Origin: an uncultured Bacillota bacterium
GTDB taxonomy: Bacteria; Bacillota; Dethiobacteria; DTU022; UBA8154
Assembly: GCA_937973635.1 (NCBI GenBank)
Contig: CALJJZ010000047.1
Location: 1-64,000 of the forward strand
Direction: 5' to 3'
Length of the DNA: 64,000 bases
The position numbers and the translations under genes are program-made. Shown here one piece after another: positions 1-13,340 of this stretch. Numbering within the stretch: position 1 is the stretch's first letter; every line of letters begins with the position of its first letter. Below the pieces are notes generated by a model. It saw only the letters and a list, made by a program, of their open reading frames with translations, had not been told where the DNA came from and did no database searches.

Positions 1-400
1 TCTTAGTGTTGAACTCCGTGGTGTTGCCGATACGGTCGATCTCCGTCTTTAGCTGGTCGATCTCCCGCTGGATCTCCATGCGGTCCTGGGAAGTGTTTGT
101 TCCCGTGGCCGCCTGTACAGCCAGCTCCCGCATACGCTGCAGGATGCTGTGGGTCTCGTTTAAGGCCCCTTCCGCCGTCTGGATGAGGCTGATACCGTCC
201 TGGGCGTTGCGGATGGCTTGGGTAAGGCCGCGGATCTGGGAACGCATCTTCTCGCTGATGGCCAGCCCCGCCGCGTCGTCGGCGGCACGGTTGATGCGCA
301 GACCTGAAGAAAGGCGCTCCAAGGACTTATTCAGACGGTTCTCCGTTGCCCCCAAGTTACGGTACGCGTTCATGGCGGCAATATTTTGGTAAATTCTCAT
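1..400 (-). CDS. Flagellin, N-terminal part (3' end beyond window start)
   Basis: Minus-strand reading gives [59 protein letters not shown]..., the classic flagellin D0/D1 N-terminus. SD AAGGAGG precedes the ATG at 398-400. Confidence 0.95.
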
Positions 401-1307: not shown

Positions 1308-1505
1308 CTAGGCCCCCCAGCCCATCTTTCGCGGGATTTCGCCGTTTTCCTCCAGCATCTTTTTCAGCTCCGTGCGATAAATGGCCATCTCCCGGGGCGC
1401 TTCGATGCCTATTTTGACATTTTCCCCCTCGATGCCGAGGATGCGGATTTTGATATCTTTACCTATTTCGATCCCCTCTTCCACCTGGCGGCGCAGTACC
1501 AGCAT
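1308..1505 (-). CDS. csrA: Carbon storage regulator CsrA (copy 1)
   Basis: [47 protein letters not shown]: CsrA family. SD GGGAGGATGGAGAAA before the ATG; the longer ORF to 1799 is probably not translated as one protein. Confidence 0.93.
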
Positions 1506-1823
1506 TTTCTCCATCCTCCCTGATTGATCTTCCATGCTTCCCTGCGGAAATCTTGACACGGGCCTTAAGGCTTCCACACCCGGCCGGCAAAACGAAAGAG
1601 CCGCCCGGGTAAACTCCGTTTTACCCGTCACGGCTCCATCCTGAAAAGACAGCCACAGGCGCTCCGTCACCTGTGCGGAAAAGGCAGGCTTTCTTCTTTT
1701 ACAGCAGGGCCATTCCCCGATCCTCGCAGCCCGGCCCTGCCACGCCTCCCGCCTCCTGATCTCAGAGGAAAGAGCGGGAAACTGCCTTTTCCGTACCATT
1801 TATATCGTCCAAGGAAAGGGGAT

Positions 1824-2113: not shown

Positions 2114-4444
2114 TTAGCCCAAAAGCTGCAAGATGGCTTGCGGCTTCATGTTGGCTTGGGCCAGCATGGCCGTGCCCGCCTGGAGCAGGATCTGGTTGCG
2201 AGTAAACTCCATCATCTCCTCGGCCATATCTAGATCCCGGATGCGGGACTCAGAGGAGTTGAGGTTTTCGATGGCTACACCCAGGCTGTTTACCGTGTGC
2301 TCCAGCCTGTTCTGGATGGCGCCCAGTTTGGAGCGCTCGCTGGAGACAAGGTCCATGGCCCGATCCAGGGCGTCCATGGCATGGTTGGCTTTAATACGGT
2401 CTGTAACAGATATTCCCTTTACGCCAAGGGCCTGGGAATCGAGGCGGCCGATGGCGGCCCCCACGTCCTGTCCTGGGTTGGGACCGATCTGGAAGACCAT
2501 GGTGCTGTCCTTAACATGAATATGGGTAATAAAAGGGGTGGGAGTAGCCAAGGTGGCAAAGGCTCCTTTAGCATCGAACTCCGTCACCAGACCCACGCCG
2601 GCCAGGGGGTCAAACTCCACGTCGATATAGGGATGGACCACGCCTACCAGCAGATTGCTGGAGATCTGCACATCATCGGCGATCACCTCGCTGGAATCAT
2701 GGGCGTTCACGACCCTTACATTGAAAATCGCTTCGGTGGAACGTTGGATCGTGGCAAAGCCGAGGGCATTGATAATATCGGCATGGCCGAAGATATTCAG
2801 CTCGCCCTGGCGCCCGGGAATAACGCTGCGCACCACCAGGGTCCCTTCGGTGGAGGTGTGAGTCCCCGCTGCTGCTTTATGCCCCGTAACATAGGTAACG
2901 AAATGGTCATGCATATTTTCCTGGAGGTAGCGCCGCTGGTCGAGGCCCTCGGCAATGGCCCTGTTCATCTTGTAGCGCAGGGTGCCCAAGGTATCGTTCA
3001 GGTCAATGGAGAAAAAGGCCCGGGTGCCATCCCCCTGCACAATAGTAATCTTCTGGGGGCTTTCCAAGAGAAAACGCCCGTTGGCATCCCAAAACTCGCG
3101 GATGTCGTAGAGGCGGGTATTGTCGTCAGCCAGCTTGCCCAGCCCGGAGGCGTAAATAAAAGTAGCAGCAGGGTCAGCGTCCCCCAGCTCCTCCACGGTA
3201 AGGGCTACCTCTCCGTCATAGGCCTGGCCGAAAGTAGAGCTCGCCTGGTCCAGATCCAGAGTGAAAAAGCGCAGCGTAGTTGTGCTGTCATTGAGGGCGT
3301 TTTCCGCGAAGGCCCACGTATGGGTAACAGTGGCTATGGCGGTAAGGGTGTGGTTGTAGTCAAGGCGGAAAACGTCGGCGTCGGCGGTGTTACCGCGGAT
3401 ATTTACCACAGCCTTGTCGCCCACCCTGACGCCTGCCGCTGTTCCGGCATTGTCAATGGTGATATTAACAGCACCTATGCTAACGACTGTGGTTGTAGTC
3501 AAGTCCACAACCTGGCCTGTTAGTCTATGGAAACTGTAATTACCATCCGCGTCATACTGGTGGCTGCTAATCCTGTATGTGAGCGTCTCACTAGCAGTAT
3601 TAACACTTGTAACCTCAAAAAGTATAGAAGCATTATATGTTACTCCGGCAGTTAGGGAGATGTTTGCGCCGCCGAAGGTGTCGCTTGCCGTCCCCTGTAA
3701 ATATTCCTGGGCAATGCCAATACTTTGGGCTGGAGCAACACCCGTCTCCGTGCTAAGCCTATAGCGTCCGTACTGCAGGTTCTGGGCGGAAAGGTCGACA
3801 ATGCCGGAGGCTGGATCCAGCTGCAGCTCCTGCAGCGACCCCACGTCGTGCTTGATCATAAAAATATTGCTTTTCTGCACCTCGGCAAGGCCGATCCGCT
3901 GCGCCTGGATCTCGATGCGGTAGTTGCCGCCCCCTTGAAATTTCTGGCCGAACTGATCGATATAGCGCAGGCCGTCCCGCATGTACACATGGGTAGTGAT
4001 ACGGTCAGTGGAGACGATGGCAGCGGCAGAGCCATCTAGCAATTTCTTGGTATTGAACTCTGTAGCGTTGGAGATGCGGTCGATCTCGTCCTTGAGCTGG
4101 TCGATCTCCCGTTGGATCTCCATGCGGTCACCGGAGGTATAGGTCTCGTTGGCGGCCTGCACAGCCAACTCGCGCATGCGCTGCAGCATGGAGTGGACTT
4201 CGTTGATGGCGCCTTCGGCGGTCTGCAGCAGGGAGATCCCGTCCTGGGCGTTGCGCAGGGCCATGCGCAGGCCTTTGATCTGGGCGCGCATCCGCTCGCT
4301 GATGGCCAGGCCGGCGGCGTCGTCGGCGGCGCGATTGATCCTGAGGCCCGAGGAGAGCCTCTCCAGGGAGCGGTTAAGGCGGCCATCGGTGATGCTGAGG
4401 TGGCGGTACGCAGTAAGGGCGGCAATATTCTGGTTGATTCTCAT
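2114..4444 (-). CDS. Giant flagellin (776 aa) with a large central insertion
   Basis: Canonical N-terminal ([16 protein letters not shown]...[29 protein letters not shown]) and C-terminal ([53 protein letters not shown]) flagellin domains, separated by roughly 500 aa. Confidence 0.95.
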
Positions 4445-4812
4445 CTTCTCTCCATCCTCCTTGATGGGTTAAATATACGGCCTCCGTGCCGTCCGAGAGA
4501 AAGGGAAACTTGTTTGCTTCAGTCCGGGTGCTCCCGCCTCCTTTTTGTTTTGTTTTCCGGCGCAGCGCAGCTTTTGGCCGCAGCAGCGGCGCCAAAATAA
4601 AAACGCCGCTTTTCCCGGGGCCGCTGCAGGGGCCTTCACCCCCGGAAGGCCCTTTTTCGGGCCTTCCCCGGCCGCGGTGGACGCGCGACGTCTCTGACAG
4701 ACAAACTACGCAAGGGATATGCCGGGGATAAGCAACCATATCCCTCATCTGCTGTGCTTTTCACCCTCCGTGGTGCAATGCGGCGCGGCGTCCTTGCCTT
4801 GCTTCGCTTATT

Positions 4813-4839
4813 ATATCGGCGGCGGCGGTTGGTTTGTTA
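4813..4839 (-). promoter_or_regulatory. Candidate sigma28 promoter for the giant flagellin
   Basis: Minus strand TAAC-N15-GCCGATAT (consensus TAAA-N15-GCCGATAT). Confidence 0.65.
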
Positions 4840-4857
4840 AGGGCCGCAGGAGGCCTT

Positions 4858-5289
4858 TTACGCCCTGCCGCCGCTTTTTAAGTACTGCAGGACCTGCCCC
4901 GTAAAACGCCTCAGGTCGGGCAGGCTGGTCTGAATAATCCGGTAAAGTTCTTCGTTCGTTACCTGGTGATAAAGGTGGACCATTCTGTTGCGATAGCCGG
5001 CCATCTTCACCAGGGTGTCGCCCAGGGAGGCGTCAACTATTCCCTGCTCCGCAAGGCCCCGGGCTATGCTTTTGTATTCCCTGGACATGGCGATGCCGCC
5101 TGATTTTGCCAGAATATGCCTGCCAATATCAAATACTGCCTCCAGGGAACGGCGCAAAAAGCTCTCCGCGGCCGCAGCGTTGCGCGGCCTTAAAAAATCC
5201 GCTTCCGGCAGTGATTTCAGGGCCTCGAGCTCACGGCAATTTGTTTCAATCAGGACGAGCCTCTGTTTAAGCAGGGTATGATCAATCAT
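4858..5289 (-). CDS. hepT: HepT-like HEPN ribonuclease toxin (DUF86)
   Basis: MIDHTLLKQRLVLIETNCRELEALK...YRNRMVHLYHQV; HEPN motif RNRMVHLY (RX4HXY). Start overlaps the upstream nucleotidyltransferase gene by 8 nt. Confidence 0.85.
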   Translation of the reverse strand: MIDHTLLKQRLVLIETNCRELEALKSLPEADFLRPRNAAAAESFLRRSLEAVFDIGRHILAKSGGIAMSREYKSIARGLAEQGIVDASLGDTLVKMAGYRNRMVHLYHQVTNEELYRIIQTSLPDLRRFTGQVLQYLKSGGRA

Positions 5290-5746
5290 CCCGTTTTTCC
5301 TCCTTGATAGCAACTTCTTCCAGGAACTCGTCCAGGTACCTATCTAAAAAAGGTTTGAAATCGGCTGCCCGGCGCAGGACGTCTTCCTCGTATGCTTCGC
5401 GGAACGGCGGATCGCTGCAGTATATACAGATGCCGCAAATAACTTCCGCCTGAAAAACTGCATGGTTTTCCTGGGCGAAAACAAGGTCCAGGGGCAGGGG
5501 CAAAAAGAGCGCTTCAAGCTCATTATAGAGGTCGGCATAGAGGTCGGGGATAAGTTCTGCCGGAGGCAGCGCAGGCGCAAAGACCAGGCCAAGATCAAGA
5601 TCTGCCAGGGGGTCATCCCCGCTGCAGCCTTTGCCTTCCAGTATGTCCAGGCCCGCCTCGGCCTGCGAGCCAAAAAGATAGGCGAGGGCCACATTATGGC
5701 TGGCGCAGATCTGTTTTAATTTCTCCCTTTTAGGCACATTATGCAA
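5282..5746 (-). CDS. mntA: MntA-like minimal nucleotidyltransferase antitoxin
   Basis: YLFGSQAEAG...DPLADLDLGLVFAPALPP: GS...DxD nucleotidyltransferase motif, with more spacing than the usual X10. Adjacent to hepT. Confidence 0.8.
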   Translation of the reverse strand: MHNVPKREKLKQICASHNVALAYLFGSQAEAGLDILEGKGCSGDDPLADLDLGLVFAPALPPAELIPDLYADLYNELEALFLPLPLDLVFAQENHAVFQAEVICGICIYCSDPPFREAYEEDVLRRAADFKPFLDRYLDEFLEEVAIKEEKRDD

Positions 5747-5862
5747 AGTTGTTCACCGCCCGGTACTTACAGCACTACTTGACCAAAATTATAACACAGG
5801 ATTATGCTAAGTTCAAACAAATAGCGCAATAATTGCTATATTTTCTATTATTAGCCAAAAAT

Positions 5863-5883
5863 AAAACCCGGCGGCCGACCGGG
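5863..5883 (-). terminator. Intrinsic terminator-like hairpin (minus strand)
   Basis: Minus strand CCCGGTCGGCCGCCGGG followed by TTTTATTTTT, ~117 nt upstream of mntA. Confidence 0.5.
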
Positions 5884-6031
5884 CTTTCCCTAAAGGAAAC
5901 GGGGAAAAAATATGGCAGACAAACCACGCTTTGCACCGTTGGTAGCACAATAATTTATTATGTGTTACCGCTGTTTTTTTTATTTCGCCGGCGGCGTTAA
6001 ATATTCCTGCCCGGGACTGCAAATTTTTTGT

Positions 6032-6060
6032 AAAAAAAAACAGGCTTTGGGCAAAGCCTG
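6032..6060 (-). terminator. Strong intrinsic terminator (minus strand)
   Basis: CAGGCTTTGGGCAAAGCCTG perfect inverted repeat followed on the minus strand by nine T. Confidence 0.75.
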
Positions 6061-6224
6061 TGAGAAAGGGTAAAGTTTAAGGAGAACAGGGCCCGTTCTC
6101 TGCGCATAAACAATATCGGCAGCTCCCGGCCCTTTTTAAAGCCCGGCGCCGCGGCCCGGCAGGAGTAAGAAAAAACGCGGCGAAATAAAAAGCGTAGGTC
6201 ATTGCGATGCACCGCGGGGGAGCC

Positions 6225-7385
6225 ATGCGCAGAATACGCATCAAAGATCTAAAGCCCGGCTATATGCTGGCCCTGCCCATCAACCTGCCACGCACCGGAG
6301 TAGCCCTGCTTAAAGAGGGCGTCGAACTGACGCAGAGGCATATCGCCTACCTGCGGCAGTACGGGCTGCAGGAGGAATTCTGTTTTATTTTCGACGGCTC
6401 CGAACAGCGGCAGCCTTCTTTGGAAGACCGCGTAATCCTGCAGCATTTCCGCGCCGATATTTTGCGCAGCATTGAAAATATGGAGCTGCAAAATACCCTC
6501 GTCTCCACTTACATTGCCCTGGAAGACCTGGCGGACAGGATAAAGAGCAACAGCGCCCTAGTGCTCCAGCCCGTCCAAAAGGTATCCGAGAAGCTGATGC
6601 GCCAGGTGCTGGAGCACAACGACGTCATGCTGCAGCTTGCCGCCCTCAAGGCCATACACGAGTACACCTTCTGCCATTCTGTTAACGTAGCCATCTACGT
6701 CGTTTCTTTCGGCAAATTCCTGGGGCTGAGGGAGGGCACCCTGCAGCAGCTGGCCCTGGCCGGGCTGCTGCACGACCTGGGAAAATTAAGCATCCCCGCG
6801 GAGATCCTCGACAAGCCCGGCAGGCTCACCGCGGAAGAGTTCAAACAGGTCAAGGGCCATACCTATGAAGGCTACCGGCGCCTGGCGGAGAAAACGGGCG
6901 TGGGCAACGACGTGCTCCAGGCTGTGCTCATGCACCACGAGCGCTTTGACGGCAGCGGCTACCTCCTGGGCCTGCAGGGCCAAAAAATCCACCCCTGGGC
7001 CAGGATGCTGGCCATCGTGGATATCTACGACGCCCTCACCTCCCGCCGCTGCTACCGGGAGGCCGTGCTCCCCCACGAAACGGTGGACTACCTCATGGCC
7101 CTGAGCACCCAGGGAGCCCTGGATTTTAAGATGCTCAGCGTCTACCTGCGGCATATGCCCGTTTATCCCGGAGGCCTGAAGGTTACTTTGAGCACCGGGG
7201 AAAAGGGGGCCGTGGTGGAGACGACGCCGGGGTTGCCGCTGCGCCCCGTGGTGGAGGTCTCCTCCCTGGCCGGGGGCAAACAGCCCGGCAAAGGGGCCCC
7301 CGCCGAACCGGTGAGCATTAAACGCAAAAGGGTCGACCTTGCGGCCAACCCCACGGTCTTTATCACCAGCATCGACGCCCGCTGA
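6225..7385 (+). CDS. HD-GYP domain cyclic-di-GMP phosphodiesterase-like protein
   Basis: HDLGKLSIPAEILDKPGRLT...HHERFDGSGYLLGLQGQKIHPWARMLAIVDIYDALTSRRCYR; start chosen at the ATG preceded by GGGGGAG. Confidence 0.92.
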   Translation: MRRIRIKDLKPGYMLALPINLPRTGVALLKEGVELTQRHIAYLRQYGLQEEFCFIFDGSEQRQPSLEDRVILQHFRADILRSIENMELQNTLVSTYIALEDLADRIKSNSALVLQPVQKVSEKLMRQVLEHNDVMLQLAALKAIHEYTFCHSVNVAIYVVSFGKFLGLREGTLQQLALAGLLHDLGKLSIPAEILDKPGRLTAEEFKQVKGHTYEGYRRLAEKTGVGNDVLQAVLMHHERFDGSGYLLGLQGQKIHPWARMLAIVDIYDALTSRRCYREAVLPHETVDYLMALSTQGALDFKMLSVYLRHMPVYPGGLKVTLSTGEKGAVVETTPGLPLRPVVEVSSLAGGKQPGKGAPAEPVSIKRKRVDLAANPTVFITSIDAR

Positions 7386-7388
7386 CCC

Positions 7389-7955
7389 TTAGGCTTCTAG
7401 GCCTGGGCCGCCGCCTGGATAAAGGGCCTGGGCCAGGCGGTAGGCCTCTACGCCCCGGCGGTGGTAGTAGCTCACGCTGCCCTCCGCCGCCCGGTCGGGC
7501 AGCCTTGTTTCCACAACTATCCTTAAAGGCCGCCTGCCCGCAAAGGGCTCGGAGACGGGAGCCCGGTGCGCCTCTCCCGGCCCGGGCGGGGCTGCCGTCT
7601 GCCCGGCGGGGCGGCCCTGCCCCAGGAGGATGCGCAGCAGCCGCTCGTACGAGGCGTGGAACTCCTGCGTATTCTCCAGCGCGCTCCCTGTTTCCGGCCG
7701 GCCCTTTTCTTCGGCCCGGCCCATCTCCGTGCGGGGCGGCGCTGTCATATTCGTACGGTTGGCGGCGTTTGCCTCCAGGCGGGTGCGTGGATTAAGGAAT
7801 TCTACGGCATGGCGCGTGTCGGTCTGGGCCTCCACGCGGTTGCGCATCTCCGGCTGCATGGCCGGGTCGGGGGCCGGCGGGGGCGCCTGCTCCCTTTGAA
7901 AGCCGTTGGGGATCAGGCCCGGTTCGCGGATATTGTGCAGGGGCGTAATACGCAA
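7389..7955 (-). CDS. Hypothetical protein (188 aa) in the flagellar operon
   Basis: Long ORF directly after csrA copy 3 on the same strand: MRITPLHNIREPGLIPNGF...VSYYHRRGVEAYRLAQAL. No family recognised. Confidence 0.65.
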   Translation of the reverse strand: MRITPLHNIREPGLIPNGFQREQAPPPAPDPAMQPEMRNRVEAQTDTRHAVEFLNPRTRLEANAANRTNMTAPPRTEMGRAEEKGRPETGSALENTQEFHASYERLLRILLGQGRPAGQTAAPPGPGEAHRAPVSEPFAGRRPLRIVVETRLPDRAAEGSVSYYHRRGVEAYRLAQALYPGGGPGLEA

Positions 7956-7976
7956 GGCAGAAGACCTCCTGGAAAT

Positions 7977-8264
7977 TTACTTTTCTTTATCTTCCACAAA
8001 AGGGGTATCCTTCTCCTGCTTTTTGAGGGAGGGGAGAGGCGTAAATTGCAGCTTTTTAAGCCTGCCCGCCATCTTGGCGGCCGTGCCCGCAGCCCGGATA
8101 TTCTCCTCCAGGATGGCTTCATAGATTTCGCGGCGGTAGATGGAAACATCCCGAGGGGCCCTGATGCCCAGGCGGATGGCGTCGCCGTTGATCTCGACGA
8201 CGCTGATTTCAATGTCATCGCCTACCATAATACTCTGGCCTTTTTTGCGCGTCAGCACCAGCAT
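7977..8264 (-). CDS. csrA: Carbon storage regulator CsrA (copy 3, with C-terminal extension)
   Basis: MLVLTRKKGQSIMVGDDIEISVVEINGDAIRLGIRAPRDVSIYRREIYEAILEEN plus ~35 aa tail; adjacent to fliW. Confidence 0.95.
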   Translation of the reverse strand: MLVLTRKKGQSIMVGDDIEISVVEINGDAIRLGIRAPRDVSIYRREIYEAILEENIRAAGTAAKMAGRLKKLQFTPLPSLKKQEKDTPFVEDKEK

Positions 8265-8411
8265 CCCTGCTACCATCCTTTCGCCGGCAAAAAAACAGGC
8301 ACTCCACCCCAATTTAATTATAGCATAGCCAAAAGAGGGAGGCAATGCCCGCAGGGCCCGCGCCAAAAATTTCCGCCTATTTCCCCGGCTTAAAGGCCCG
8401 TAACTGCTTTT

Positions 8412-8849
8412 TTAAGGCTCGGGCTCCAGGGGCAAAGGAGTGCGCATCTCCCCGATGCGCTCGGGGATAATGAGCTGTTTGGCCAGGCGCCGCGCCACAT
8501 TAACGACAATGGGCGCCGAAAGGTTGGTGGAAAGCTTTCCCTCCCCCAGCACTGTCACCGTGGTAAAAACCAGGGCGTCCTCCTGGCGCTCCAGCTCAAT
8601 TTCTTTTTTGTCCTGCTCGCTTAAATCGACGGCGTAATGGGGGAAACAGGGAAAGGGGTCAATCAAAATCAAGCCCACTTCCGGCTCGTCCAGGGACTGC
8701 AGATAGTAAAAAAGGGGGTTGTCCTCCACCCTGTGCAGGCTAAACCTTTTGTTATGGCCCAGGCCTGGCAAGCCTTTGCGGAAAAAAATAGCCTCTTCTG
8801 TTTTTTCCTCTTGTTCCCGGGTATGCAAATTGGCCAAACTGTCCATCAC
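8412..8849 (-). CDS. fliW: Flagellar assembly factor FliW
   Basis: FRKGLPGLGHNKRFSLHRVEDNPLFYYLQSLDEPEVGLILIDPF...; FliW family, upstream of csrA. Confidence 0.93.
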   Translation of the reverse strand: MMDSLANLHTREQEEKTEEAIFFRKGLPGLGHNKRFSLHRVEDNPLFYYLQSLDEPEVGLILIDPFPCFPHYAVDLSEQDKKEIELERQEDALVFTTVTVLGEGKLSTNLSAPIVVNVARRLAKQLIIPERIGEMRTPLPLEPEP

Positions 8850-8939
8850 AATCCACCTTCAACGGAAGTTGCCCCTTCAGCTGGTAACTCCATTATTTTA
8901 CCATGGTTCGGCGGCAGAGGCTATCCTTTTTTCACAGCC

Positions 8940-11093
8940 CTAGCGCAAAAAGTCCACCAGCGAGGGGTAGATCATGCGCGCTCCCGTAGCCAGGGCCGCC
9001 TGGTAAACAGTCTCCTGGAGCGTAAATTCGGTGATGATCTCCGCCATATCGATGTCTTCCAGCTTGGAGCGCAGCTCCCTCAGAAAAATATGCTCGCTGC
9101 GGTGCTGCTCCTCCGTGACCAGGAAACGCTCCATGCGGGCGCCCAGTTCCGAACGGTGTTTGAGCAGGCTGTGGAAATAGCGGTCGAGCTCCTGCAGGAC
9201 CGGCCCGCCTAGGGCCTCCCGGTCGTTATGCAGGAGGGCCTCGTAGAGCCTGTTTACGGCGCGGAATAACCCCACCCCGTCTTTGCCCTCAAGGTCAAAG
9301 AGATACAGCCCGCTCATATTGGCAGGGACGGCATTGCCGGGGGCAATCTCCAGCAGCCTCTCCCCGCCGTCCCCCAGAAAGTAGGGCTCGCCGGCGGCAA
9401 TGAAATTAAAAATGGCGGCAGGGTAGCTGTCGTATTCCTCGTCCGGGACGCCGTAGCGTAATATCTCTTCCTGGCTGCGGTACTCCTGGGCGGCGGCGGT
9501 GCCAAAGCTGCGGAAGGTAGCCTGGATCGTGCTGGTAATCAGCTTGCCGTTTGTGTGGTCGATGTCAAAGAATTTTAAGGTCGTGTTTTTGGCCTCCGCC
9601 GGCGGGTCGGGGTCAAAGACGCCCCGGGCAAAATACCAGTCCAGGCCGGCGCCGACTGTGGGGCGCCCGCTGGCGTCGGGGCGCCCGTAATCACGGTGCA
9701 GGGTAAAACGGTCAAACTCCTCCGTGGAGCTGTAAGCTGCCGGCGGTTTGAGCTGCAGGACCAGCTTATCCCCCACCAGCGGCAGGTCGTGCTCAAAGGT
9801 TAAAGTTTCCACACTGGAGACCCCAAGGGAAACGTCCCCGCCTCCCGTCTGGAAGGTAATGAGCTGCTCCCCCAGGTACAGGCGGTTAAGGTTGAGATAT
9901 ATATCCTCGTCGCTGCGCTGGCCGTAGGAACCTTCATAATTTCTCCCTTCCACGTCCCGCAGCAGATAACGCACCGCCAGGCGGACAATGCGGTCACCGG
10001 GCTCGCCGTCGATCTGCTCCTGCAGCTCCGCCCTTAAGTCCTGGTGGCGTACCGCTTCCACAATCTCCAGCGCCACGGAACCGCCCAGAGCGGCAGTGCT
10101 GTCGTAGGAGAGCTCCAGCCGGTCGGTGCCGAAAAAGCCCGCCCGGGCCGCCTGCAGGTATTGGGAAACCACGGTTACGGTGGGGCCGGTAAAGCAGTTC
10201 ACCTGGAAAATTTCCGGGTCCGTGGGAGTGACCGCCAGAGAAAAGGGGCCTTCTGGGATATCCGTACGCACAAAGCGCACGCTGTCAAACTCGCTGTCGC
10301 CGGTGGTATCCACGCCCGAGGCCGCAAGATATAAAGACAGCACCGGGTGGGAGGCCACCGCAGCGATGATGTTGGCTATGGCCCCGGGGACGTCGTCGTC
10401 GGCCCCCGCAGCGGTCACGGTATAGGCGTCGCCGTCAACGGTAAACTCAAGGGTAACTTCTGCGGCCTGGCCTCCGGGCCCGGAGGTAACGCGGCCCTGG
10501 ACGTAGCTCAGGCTGGTCCTTTCCGTGCTCACGGCATAGCTGCCTGCCGCCAGGTTTTCCACCTTGAGGCCGATGCCGCCGTCTGCGCCGGCAAGGAGCC
10601 CTCCCGCAGGGTTAAGCCACGTCTGGAGCATGGCCCCTGTCTCCCCGGCAAGGGCAAAAGGCTTCTCGTCCGTGCGGTGCCCGCCAAAGAGATAGAGCCC
10701 GGCCAGCTCCGTGTTGCCGATACTGATGAGGTGTTCCAGCAGCTGCCTGACTTCGGGCGCCACGGCAAGGCGGTCGGCAGCGGTAAAGATTTCGTTGGCG
10801 GCGTAAACGGAGAGCTCCCGCAGGCGCTGCACGGTATCAATGGTTCCTGCCAGGGCATCCTCCGTGGCCGAGAGCCAGGAGATCCCCTCGCCGATATTGC
10901 GGCAGTACTGGGCATTACGGGCCAGGGCAGTCCCGGCAAGACGCATCACTTTATATGTCCCCACAGGGTCCTGGGAGGGCCGGTCAAAGATCCGCCCCGT
11001 AGAAAGCTGGTTTGAGCGGATGCTCAGGTTACGCATATTTTGTTTTAGGTTCCGGGTAACACCGTGGGCCAGCATCCGGTGCGTCACACGCAT
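8940..11093 (-). CDS. flgL: Flagellar hook-associated protein FlgL (about 717 aa, enlarged)
   Basis: MRVTHRMLAHGVTRNLKQNMRNLSIRSNQLSTGRIFDRPSQDPVGTYKVMRL...; C-term DIDMAEIITEFTLQETVYQAALATGARMIYPSLVDFLR. Confidence 0.93.
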   Translation of the reverse strand: MRVTHRMLAHGVTRNLKQNMRNLSIRSNQLSTGRIFDRPSQDPVGTYKVMRLAGTALARNAQYCRNIGEGISWLSATEDALAGTIDTVQRLRELSVYAANEIFTAADRLAVAPEVRQLLEHLISIGNTELAGLYLFGGHRTDEKPFALAGETGAMLQTWLNPAGGLLAGADGGIGLKVENLAAGSYAVSTERTSLSYVQGRVTSGPGGQAAEVTLEFTVDGDAYTVTAAGADDDVPGAIANIIAAVASHPVLSLYLAASGVDTTGDSEFDSVRFVRTDIPEGPFSLAVTPTDPEIFQVNCFTGPTVTVVSQYLQAARAGFFGTDRLELSYDSTAALGGSVALEIVEAVRHQDLRAELQEQIDGEPGDRIVRLAVRYLLRDVEGRNYEGSYGQRSDEDIYLNLNRLYLGEQLITFQTGGGDVSLGVSSVETLTFEHDLPLVGDKLVLQLKPPAAYSSTEEFDRFTLHRDYGRPDASGRPTVGAGLDWYFARGVFDPDPPAEAKNTTLKFFDIDHTNGKLITSTIQATFRSFGTAAAQEYRSQEEILRYGVPDEEYDSYPAAIFNFIAAGEPYFLGDGGERLLEIAPGNAVPANMSGLYLFDLEGKDGVGLFRAVNRLYEALLHNDREALGGPVLQELDRYFHSLLKHRSELGARMERFLVTEEQHRSEHIFLRELRSKLEDIDMAEIITEFTLQETVYQAALATGARMIYPSLVDFLR

Positions 11094-11130
11094 CTCTTTT
11101 AACCTCCCGTCTTTTATGGTTAACGGCCGC

Positions 11131-13269
11131 TTACCTTCCCAGGGTGCCGATGAGCATCTCCAGCATCTGGTCAAAGGTGCTCATATATTTCGCCGCTGCG
11201 TTGTAGGCATGCTGAAACTGGATGAGGTTGAGCATCTCGTCGTCCAGGGATACCCCTGAAACCCCCTCCTGGTGCTCGCGCATATTATAAGCCAAGGCAT
11301 ACATGGCCAGGGCCATGCGCTCGCTCTCCCTGGCCGCCACGCCCAGCTCGGCGATCCTGCCGCGGAAAAAATCGTGGAACGTAGCTTTGCCGCCCTGCAG
11401 CGCTTTTTCTTCCCGCAGGCGGGCGATGGCCAGGGCGCCGGCGCCGTCACCGACCCCCCGGTTGTCTGCGGCAGCGGCAATATGGGCCACGTCCTGCAGG
11501 ATCTCCAGGCTGAGGCGGAAATTTTTGGCGGCACGGTGGATATAGGCGTTAAGATTGCTGGGCTGGTAGGGCCCGACGTTGAAAAGGGCCGCCTCCGTCT
11601 CCGTCTCCAGGGTTCCCAGCGTTACCTGTAAACGTACCTCCCGGTGCGCGCCGCTCTCCGCGTCGAGCTGAAAAAACTGCAAGGTGTTTGTCCGGTTGTC
11701 GAAACCGCCCGGCTCCAAAACCTGGCGGTACAGGTTCCCACCGCCCTGATAGCCGAAAGTGAGGGCCTGGTCATCCACCGCCCTTGCGGCCGTAACCGTG
11801 ACCACAAACTTGTCCCCTGCGGAAAAATTGCCCACCGCCTCCAGGACCAGTTCCAGCTCCAGCTCCAGGCCGTTTTCCGCGGTATAGGCAAGGGTGTTGC
11901 CCACGCCGCCGGTATAGAGCTTTTTAATCCCCTCCCCGTAGCCTGCAGTCCCGTCCTTGTGGGTGTGGTAGAGGTAGTAACGGACGAATACGTGGTCGTC
12001 GCCCACTTTTGTCACTTCAAAAAGCAGGGAGGAGTTCAGCTCCACGCCATCGTCCACCGCCACACCCTGCACGAGGCTGCCCCTGTTCAAGCTGTAGGTG
12101 GCGACAACGTCGGCAGCGGCGTCGGCACCGGCCGAAACAAGCAGGGTATCGAGGGCATAGGCGCCGTCCAGCGGGATATGGGCGAGCTTTTGGTCTATCT
12201 TTACGCCGGTGATATTGTCGGCGCCGCCAAGGTCCAGGGTAAAGGGATCAATGACCAGATCCCCCGGCATCACTTCCCTCCAGGGAGCAAAGAAGTTGAT
12301 GCCGGTGCTCCCCTCCAGGCCGTAACCCTGGCGGTGCAGCGTATTTACCTGCTGCACAAGGCCGTAAACCAGCTCGTCCAGGGCGCGCTGGCAGCCGAAA
12401 AGCTCGTCGTTATAGGACTGGAGCAGCGCCTTTAGTTTGCCGCCCGTAATATTTAAAAGGGAGTCCATCTCGTTATAGATCAGGTAATAATCGCGCAGGT
12501 CCTCCTCGTCCAAAAAATAGCGCCCTTCCAGGGCAAAATAGCGGCCGTCCTGCACCAGGATGCGCCCCCCCGCCAGCACCTCCACGCCGCCGTTGTCTTT
12601 TTTAATGGTGCGGATATTTAGGAGCTCGCTCAATTCCTGCAGGCGTTTGTCCCGCTCGTCCAGCATCTCGTTGGATTTGGTGCCGATGGCCTGCATAAAA
12701 ATGATCTTTTTGTTCAGCTCGCTGATTTCCCGGGCCAGGGCATTCACGTCGTCTAGGGTGGCCTGGAGCTCCTTCTCCAGGTCATGTTTGACTTCATCCA
12801 GGCGGTCATAGACCCCGCCGATCACGCCAATAAGGGTCAAAGCCTGTTCCCGCAGGCTGACGCGGGCGGCATAACTTTCCGGGTTCACGCTCAGCTCCTG
12901 CCAGGCGTCAAAAAAATCGCTGAGGGCCGTATTAATCCCCAGCTCCCCCGGCTCCAGGAAGATCACTTCCATCGTCCCCAGCGTCTCCCCCAGCCGCTCC
13001 CAGTAACTCATCCCCGTAAGGGCGGAGAGCAGCTGGTTGTCGTAAAACTCGCTGCGCAGCCGGTCAATATCCGAGACCTCCACGCCGGTGCCGGGCGGGG
13101 TAACAACCCCCGGCACAGCCGCGGGGATCACCGCCTTCATGTGCTGGATCTGCCGTGTATAACCTTCCGTGTTGGCATTGGCAATATTCTGGCCGGTCAC
13201 CTTGGCCCCGTTTTGCATCACGTGGATAGCCCGGCGGCCGATCTCAAAACTGCCGAAGGTGCTGCTCAT
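11131..13269 (-). CDS. flgK: Flagellar hook-associated protein FlgK (about 712 aa)
   Basis: MSSTFGSFEIGRRAIHVMQNGAKVTGQNIANANTEGYTRQ...; C-term GVSLDDEMLNLIQFQHAYNAAAKYMSTFDQMLEMLIG. Confidence 0.95.
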   Translation of the reverse strand: MSSTFGSFEIGRRAIHVMQNGAKVTGQNIANANTEGYTRQIQHMKAVIPAAVPGVVTPPGTGVEVSDIDRLRSEFYDNQLLSALTGMSYWERLGETLGTMEVIFLEPGELGINTALSDFFDAWQELSVNPESYAARVSLREQALTLIGVIGGVYDRLDEVKHDLEKELQATLDDVNALAREISELNKKIIFMQAIGTKSNEMLDERDKRLQELSELLNIRTIKKDNGGVEVLAGGRILVQDGRYFALEGRYFLDEEDLRDYYLIYNEMDSLLNITGGKLKALLQSYNDELFGCQRALDELVYGLVQQVNTLHRQGYGLEGSTGINFFAPWREVMPGDLVIDPFTLDLGGADNITGVKIDQKLAHIPLDGAYALDTLLVSAGADAAADVVATYSLNRGSLVQGVAVDDGVELNSSLLFEVTKVGDDHVFVRYYLYHTHKDGTAGYGEGIKKLYTGGVGNTLAYTAENGLELELELVLEAVGNFSAGDKFVVTVTAARAVDDQALTFGYQGGGNLYRQVLEPGGFDNRTNTLQFFQLDAESGAHREVRLQVTLGTLETETEAALFNVGPYQPSNLNAYIHRAAKNFRLSLEILQDVAHIAAAADNRGVGDGAGALAIARLREEKALQGGKATFHDFFRGRIAELGVAARESERMALAMYALAYNMREHQEGVSGVSLDDEMLNLIQFQHAYNAAAKYMSTFDQMLEMLIGTLGR

Positions 13270-13340
13270 TCCATACACCTCGCGTTTTAGTATTTAGGCA
13301 ATTCCCCACCCTTAGGAAGTATTGCCAAAGGTTTAAAGGA

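Follow-up and report, generated by a model that had tools for sequence, protein, structure and literature searches.

The stretch of DNA analysed here (the window) comprises 64,000 nucleotides from an uncultured Dethiobacter-like Bacillota bacterium, and its minus strand carries genes for flagellin and for the two junction proteins of the flagellum, FlgK and FlgL, each of which contains a large insert. The initial annotation proposed that the three inserts share an ordered series of motifs. Our comparisons confirm, as far as sequence can, that they are copies of one homologous domain family, which also includes an insert in the hook protein FlgE. We refer to the shared insert, which is approximately 215 amino acids (aa) long, as domain A and to a second module of approximately 115 aa as domain B. 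Genomes are labelled G###, loci L###, families f1 and f3, and genera g1 and g8; the window belongs to genome G000, which is a member of genus g1 together with G002, G003, and G004, while G011 and G017 belong to a different genus from G000 and G004. The genes and domains are as follows.

2114–4444, minus strand: flagellin gene (P0001) carrying domain A; 776 aa; Pfam Flagellin_N 5e-47 and Flagellin_C 2e-28.
3128–3805, minus strand: domain A in flagellin (aa ~214–439), lying between Flagellin_N and Flagellin_C; profile match of 1e-65 (the profile includes this copy itself), AlphaFold2 model, and hhalign matches to the FlgE, FlgK, and FlgL profiles.
8940–11093, minus strand: FlgL gene (P0002) carrying domains A and B in an insert at aa ~153–571; 717 aa; NCBIfam flagell_flgL 2e-65.
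9489–10169, minus strand: remainder of domain A in FlgL (aa ~309–535); 6e-4 with a subfamily-free profile, and hhalign matches of 7.6e-12 to FliC and 8.5e-11 to FlgL of f3.
10170–10511, minus strand: domain B nested within domain A of FlgL (aa ~195–308); 1e-7 to a profile of domain B from other genomes, and missing from FlgL of G017, G020, and G011.
10512–10580, minus strand: first part of domain A in FlgL (aa ~172–194, 'VENLAAGSYAVSTERTS'), from alignment with the uninterrupted domain A in FlgL of G017, G020, and G011.
11131–13278, minus strand: FlgK gene (P0003) carrying domain A; 715 aa; NCBIfam flgK_ends 6e-92.
11572–12204, minus strand: domain A in FlgK (aa ~359–569); 2.5e-17 with a FlgK-free profile, inserted between aa ~332 and ~578 relative to the FlgK of L016.

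The four motifs occur in the same order in all three inserts, at the places where the initial annotation had located them. Motifs A, B, C, and D start at residues 271, 288, 341, and 387 of flagellin, at 337, 372, 440, and 503 of FlgL, and at 415, 430, 487, and 530 of FlgK, and an upstream block starts at 221 in flagellin and 179 in FlgL. A blastp comparison of the isolated inserts gave a suggestive match between flagellin and FlgK (E = 0.004, colinear over ~140 aa) and a non-significant one for FlgL (E = 0.066). Within one genome, the copies of domain A in different host proteins are only 24–37% identical. Single-sequence searches were too weak for FlgL and profiles were therefore needed. Iterated searches with hidden Markov models, which recruited FlgL strongly, are circular after round one, and for this reason we used only their first-round, cross-family, and decoy results. 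In the first round, the window FlgK was matched at 2.5e-17 by a profile seeded with flagellin, FlgE, and FlgL copies from several genomes and no FlgK. The window FlgL insert was matched at 6e-4 by a profile without sequences of the window-type FlgL, and the same profile matched the FlgL of some relatives as two colinear pieces.

The initial annotation had put forward profile-profile alignment as a check on its proposal. We ran hhalign between protein-specific alignments of FliC, FlgE, FlgK of f1, FlgL of f3, and the window-type FlgL, using as decoys other parts of the same proteins (the C-terminal outer half of flagellin, FlgE D2, domain B, D1 domains, and the insert of f3 FlgE). Scores between the flagellin, FlgL, and FlgK inserts were significant and colinear. 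FliC matched FlgE at E = 7e-35, FlgL of f3 at 9.6e-31, FlgK of f1 at 7e-21, and the window-type FlgL at 7.6e-12 (206 columns). The window-type FlgL was also matched by FlgL of f3 (8.5e-11, 201 columns) and by FlgK (2.4e-6). The weakest pair was FlgE and the window-type FlgL (E = 0.0015, 65 columns), which are connected via FliC, FlgK, and FlgL of f3. None of the controls was significant; decoys reached at most 18 bits (P of at least 0.08) and column-shuffled alignments at most 25 bits. A Pfam-A scan of 17 copies of domain A returned no credible family above the curated cut-off.

Comparison with relatives that lack domain A shows that it was inserted cleanly in FlgE, FlgK, and FlgL, as the two flanks meet in those relatives, separated by few residues if any. 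The flanks 332|578 of FlgK correspond to 327|329 in L016, those of FlgL (152|572) to 170|173 in L013, and those of FlgE (208|427) to 202|203 in L128. Relatives' FlgL proteins of 302–335 aa align only with aa 1–152 and ~572–717 of the window FlgL. Domain A is continuous in the FlgL of G017, G020, and G011, while in the window FlgL domain B is inserted between 'VENLAAGSYAVSTERTS' and 'VSQYLQAARAGFFG'. The upstream block that the initial annotation described as common to flagellin and FlgL is indeed present, but these alignments show that it is not separate from the domain; it forms the beginning of domain A and has been split off in FlgL by domain B. At the same point, the FlgL of G004, from the same genus, contains a complete second domain A.

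Domain B is an unannotated module common to flagellins and FlgL, usually located just before domain A (for example, aa 215–329 of L039 FliC and aa 161–277 of L047 FlgL). It precedes domain A in the flagellins of G004 and G011 and in the FlgL of G051 and G067. In FlgL of six further genomes (G227, G395, G501, G507, G520, and G522) domain A is split by another insert, in several of them at profile position ~72, which differs from the split site in the window FlgL. FlgL thus seems to be a hot spot for nested inserts. Very large flagellins of 1387, 1693, 1848, and 1743 aa carry domain A among other outer modules (L043/L044 in G020, L103 in G240, and L171 in G522).

A search of the window's genome with the flagellin identified a fourth carrier, FlgE, on another contig (C23, 42667–43497, minus strand). 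Its insert is 33% identical to flagellin aa 206–499 (E = 1.3e-19) and is flanked by the Pfam domains native to FlgE, D1 and FlgE_D2 (PF07559 at 418–531). PF07559 is a match separate from domain A, and the two were not significantly similar in the profile-profile decoy comparison. A search of the genome with the domain profile recovered flagellin, FlgK, and FlgE only; the FlgL copy, being divergent, had to be compared more closely. FliD (513 aa), FlgB, FlgC, and the FlgF/FlgG-type proteins of this genome are of ordinary size, and domain A appears to be missing from the cap protein (FliD) and from the rod. Every match to domain A was classified as a flagellar axial protein (FliC, FlgL, FlgK, or FlgE). 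FlgE with domain A is restricted to genus g1 (G000, G002, G003, and G004), and the FlgE proteins of G011, G017, and G020 are 440–443 aa long and lack it. The FlgE proteins of L139, L133, and L131 in f3 are oversized (537–657 aa), with different inserts in the same position; L139 and L133 were compared with domain A and did not match.

A survey of related genomes, also suggested by the initial annotation, found domain A in 13/71 genomes of the window's order, in none of the 98 genomes of the class outside that order, and in 9/398 sampled genomes of the phylum. According to their records, relatives with the same form of FlgL (four loci matched) are Dethiobacter sp. and Dethiobacter alkaliphilus. 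Domain A is present in both FlgK and FlgL, and sometimes also in flagellin, and this combination recurs in a second order, that of G111. There, 15 of 63 genomes have domain A; by our own count it is in both FlgK and FlgL in 11 genomes, three of which also have it in flagellin. As flgK and flgL are neighbouring genes, their joint occurrence may partly reflect joint inheritance.

We constructed a tree from 38 copies of domain A; its root is not fixed and it does not give the direction of transfer. FlgK of f1, FlgE, and the window-type FlgL each formed supported groups, while flagellin and FlgL copies overall were scattered and mixed. Approximately unbiased (AU) tests rejected a single clade for all FliC copies (p = 5e-52) and for all FlgL copies (p = 4e-75), and holding the copies of one genome together was also rejected. 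The flagellins of G000 and G004 are 92% and 91% identical in their flanks but just 27% identical in domain A. The flagellin domain A of G000 is 59% identical to that of G017, and that of G004 is 55% identical to that of G011, each pair crossing genera. These figures show domain A to be exchanged as a cassette. The homology, the clean insertion sites, and the mixing of host proteins in the trees lend support to the earlier proposal of duplication and transfer among filament and junction subunits, and extend it to the hook.

The AlphaFold2 model of the flagellin copy is confident (predicted local distance difference test, pLDDT, 91.7; predicted template modelling score, pTM, 0.88) and predicts that domain A is an all-beta domain with 15 beta strands. 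A Foldseek search with this copy found a single significant PDB match, the flagellin of Geovibrio thiophilus (9AU6; E = 2e-6, prob 1.0). The fit (TMq 0.58, root-mean-square deviation 7.7) indicates that a related topology is likely, but it is not a close fit. The window flagellin aligns with the Geovibrio flagellin along its whole length. Using a Geovibrio sequence taken from a printed alignment, a FliC-only profile matched the corresponding region weakly (8e-5, 181 columns, 36 bits, with a shuffled maximum of 20 bits), and the whole-family profile aligned just 33 columns. An hmmsearch of PDB sequences with the domain profile returned no match, nothing significant was found by Foldseek among viral structures, and no FlgK/FlgL D2 beta-sandwich chain (4UT1 / xcFlgL type) was found at E <= 0.001 in the PDB fold search. 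The insertion site and the 9AU6 match together suggest that domain A would be exposed on the surface of the assembled flagellum.

Every copy of domain A is acidic. In the window's genome, domain A has a net charge of -5 to -8 per 100 aa, compared with +0.6 for long open reading frames (ORFs) of the window. Invariant columns over the copies are G and D, and nearly invariant columns are G, Y, and S. Ser+Thr content is ordinary, at 11–24%. The initial annotation had also raised the possibility of shared ligand or glycan binding, but nothing supports it directly; conservation across all copies falls mostly on Gly and Asp positions, and no shared ligand-binding signature was found in the conserved columns.

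A second flagellin gene is represented in the window by its N-terminal 133 aa (2–400, minus strand), where the contig breaks off. The C-terminus of this flagellin probably lies on contig C96 (5–166; 87% identical to the first flagellin), so that its middle falls in an assembly gap and may carry domain A too. On C96, a Maf-type glycosyltransferase gene (PF01973 8e-40, Maf_flag10_N 2e-13) followed by NeuB-, NeuC-, and NeuA-like genes lies between the second flagellin and flaG-fliD-fliS (L119, 319–5229), and this region is likely a flagellar nonulosonate glycosylation island. G004 has a Maf-like gene and pseudaminate-type genes near a flagellin. The window also contains two csrA genes, one beside flagellin (1308–1799, minus strand) and one (7977–8366, minus strand) beside fliW (8412–8849, minus strand). 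Between flagellin and an HD-GYP-like gene (6207–7385, plus strand), two small overlapping ORFs (4858–5746, minus strand) resemble, as judged by eye, a nucleotidyltransferase/HEPN pair.

FlgE, FlgK, FlgL, and flagellin form one continuous axis in that order (PMC6155364), with 11 FlgK and 11 FlgL subunits as layers between hook and filament (PMC11839096). The explanation that we favour, with moderate confidence, is that domain A is an acidic all-beta outer-domain cassette that forms a common negatively charged outer layer from hook to filament. It has been inserted at the outward-facing end of D1 in flagellin, FlgL, FlgK and, in the window's genus, FlgE. The extracellular axis is assembled from these four proteins on a single 11-protofilament lattice. 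The same type of domain would therefore appear on each of its subunits along the whole length, and hook, junction, and filament would gain a common layer with compatible contacts between neighbours. Such a layer would most likely stiffen and shield the flagellum. The cassette has been duplicated and nested (with domain B or a second domain A lying inside the domain A of FlgL), and recombination has moved it between host proteins and between species. We favour a shared acidic, probably stabilising layer because of the axis order, the acidity of all copies, and two precedents: in Pseudomonas, networks of outer domains are required for motility and stability (PMC10256154), and in H. pylori negatively charged glycans on D2/D3 stabilise filaments (PMC12880188). 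A continuous outer layer over the axis, as the initial annotation envisaged, is plausible. A stricter version, in which the same outer domain on the hook, both junction layers, and the filament touches its own kind across each boundary through homotypic contacts and all axial genes keep and exchange the cassette as a unit, seems less likely than not.

Several observations weigh against the proposed layer. In genus g8, domain A is missing from FlgE (440–443 aa) though present in FlgK, FlgL, and flagellin, and several genomes carry it in just one type of protein; a full coat is thus not a requirement. The low identity between host proteins of one genome (24–37%) implies that contacts, if any, are not tightly co-conserved. 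Lateral contacts of domain A are hypothetical, and the model of the FlgL insert has low confidence (pLDDT 44). The ORFs that served as background for charge may include some that are non-coding.

The same patchiness is what would be expected if the cassette had spread neutrally. Under this explanation, which we consider rather unlikely though deserving of weight, the loop where D1 ends can accept large inserts, flagellin-family genes recombine, and outer domains leak between paralogues without advantage. The restriction of the FlgE copy to one genus, the flagellin-only genomes, the different kinds of nested insert at one FlgL site, the exchange of flagellin cassettes between genera, and the unrelated FlgE inserts in the f3 relatives all agree with neutral spread, but it does not readily account for the retention of acidity in every copy, for the finding of domain A solely in axial proteins of the extracellular lattice, or for its repeated joint presence in FlgK and FlgL across two orders, although joint inheritance of the neighbouring genes explains part of the latter.

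Alternatively, domain A could be a shared glycan acceptor, the target of a Maf-type glycosyltransferase, so that every axial protein would be decorated with nonulosonic acids. Flagellins that have no domain A are also glycosylated by Maf systems. The absence of a conserved Ser/Thr patch among the invariant and nearly invariant columns, and the ordinary Ser+Thr content, make such a role improbable, despite the Maf and NeuB/NeuC/NeuA-like genes that adjoin the second flagellin and fliD in the window's genome, the Maf-like and pseudaminate-type genes near the G004 flagellin, and the glycans on D2/D3 that make H. pylori filaments negatively charged (PMC12880188). Glycosylation of domain A by such genes is possible, but it gained no specific support.

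Ancient vertical inheritance, whereby an ancestral axial protein had domain A and most descendants lost it, would fit the grouping by host protein of the FlgK, FlgL (_d), and FlgE copies in f1; we rejected it as very improbable since FliC and FlgL copies do not form single clades, the FlgE copy occurs in one genus only, the closest relatives join cleanly with no remnants, and the D1 folds of FlgE and flagellin differ (PMC6155364). Chance or compositional similarity between beta-rich inserts of low conservation, which the low pairwise identities and the non-significant blastp of FlgL pairs might suggest, has a negligible probability given the profile-profile significance, the clean decoys and shuffles, and the full-length colinearity of the motifs, and it was rejected, having already been refuted for FliC, FlgE, and FlgK.

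Outer domains are usually studied protein by protein, and mostly in flagellin, whereas here a single recognisable domain is common to hook, junction, and filament. Relatives with domain A in one, two, three, or four proteins form a natural series that makes the need for matching outer domains on neighbouring subunits testable, and that bears on what outer domains contribute to hook–filament coupling. The unannotated domain family and the second, nested module account for many oversized FlgK, FlgL, FlgE, and flagellin proteins in the phylum.

The initial annotation knew of no description of such a shared module. Sharing of folds among axial proteins is already known, but in the literature searched we found no account of a single outer domain that can be recognised by sequence in the hook protein, FlgK, FlgL, and flagellin alike. 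Domain A resembles the outer domain of the Geovibrio thiophilus flagellin (9AU6) in its place between the halves of a D0/D1 axial core and in its all-beta fold, with a topology that is likely related, but the Geovibrio domain is known from a flagellin only and its domain-level sequence similarity to domain A is marginal. The D2 beta-sandwich of FlgL and FlgK (Xanthomonas FlgL and Burkholderia FlgK; Hong 2018, PMC6155364) is a D1-attached outer domain common to the two junction proteins and has been proposed to make quasi-homotypic contacts (PMC6155364). Its sharing is at the level of fold and between two proteins, whereas domain A, searched with its flagellin copy, has no significant match to those structures and reaches flagellin and the hook. 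The heads of FliD, which resemble FlgK and FliC (Postel 2016, PMC5072837), are another case of axial proteins with common outer-domain folds, with one domain a loop insertion in the other as domain B is in domain A, but sequence identity there is very low (14–17%), and here FliD appears to lack domain A. FlgE_D2 (PF07559) likewise forms an outer part of the hook protein, but FlgE here keeps its own PF07559 beside the insert and domain A is not similar to it. Exchange of the flagellin hypervariable region (Hu and Reeves 2020, PMC7018530) swaps centres between strains while the ends are conserved, as in the flagellins of G000, G004, G017, and G011. That exchange concerns flagellin only, while the cassettes described here also occur in FlgL, FlgK, and FlgE, which points to transfer between different flagellar genes, beyond flagellin alleles, as an origin of hypervariable regions.

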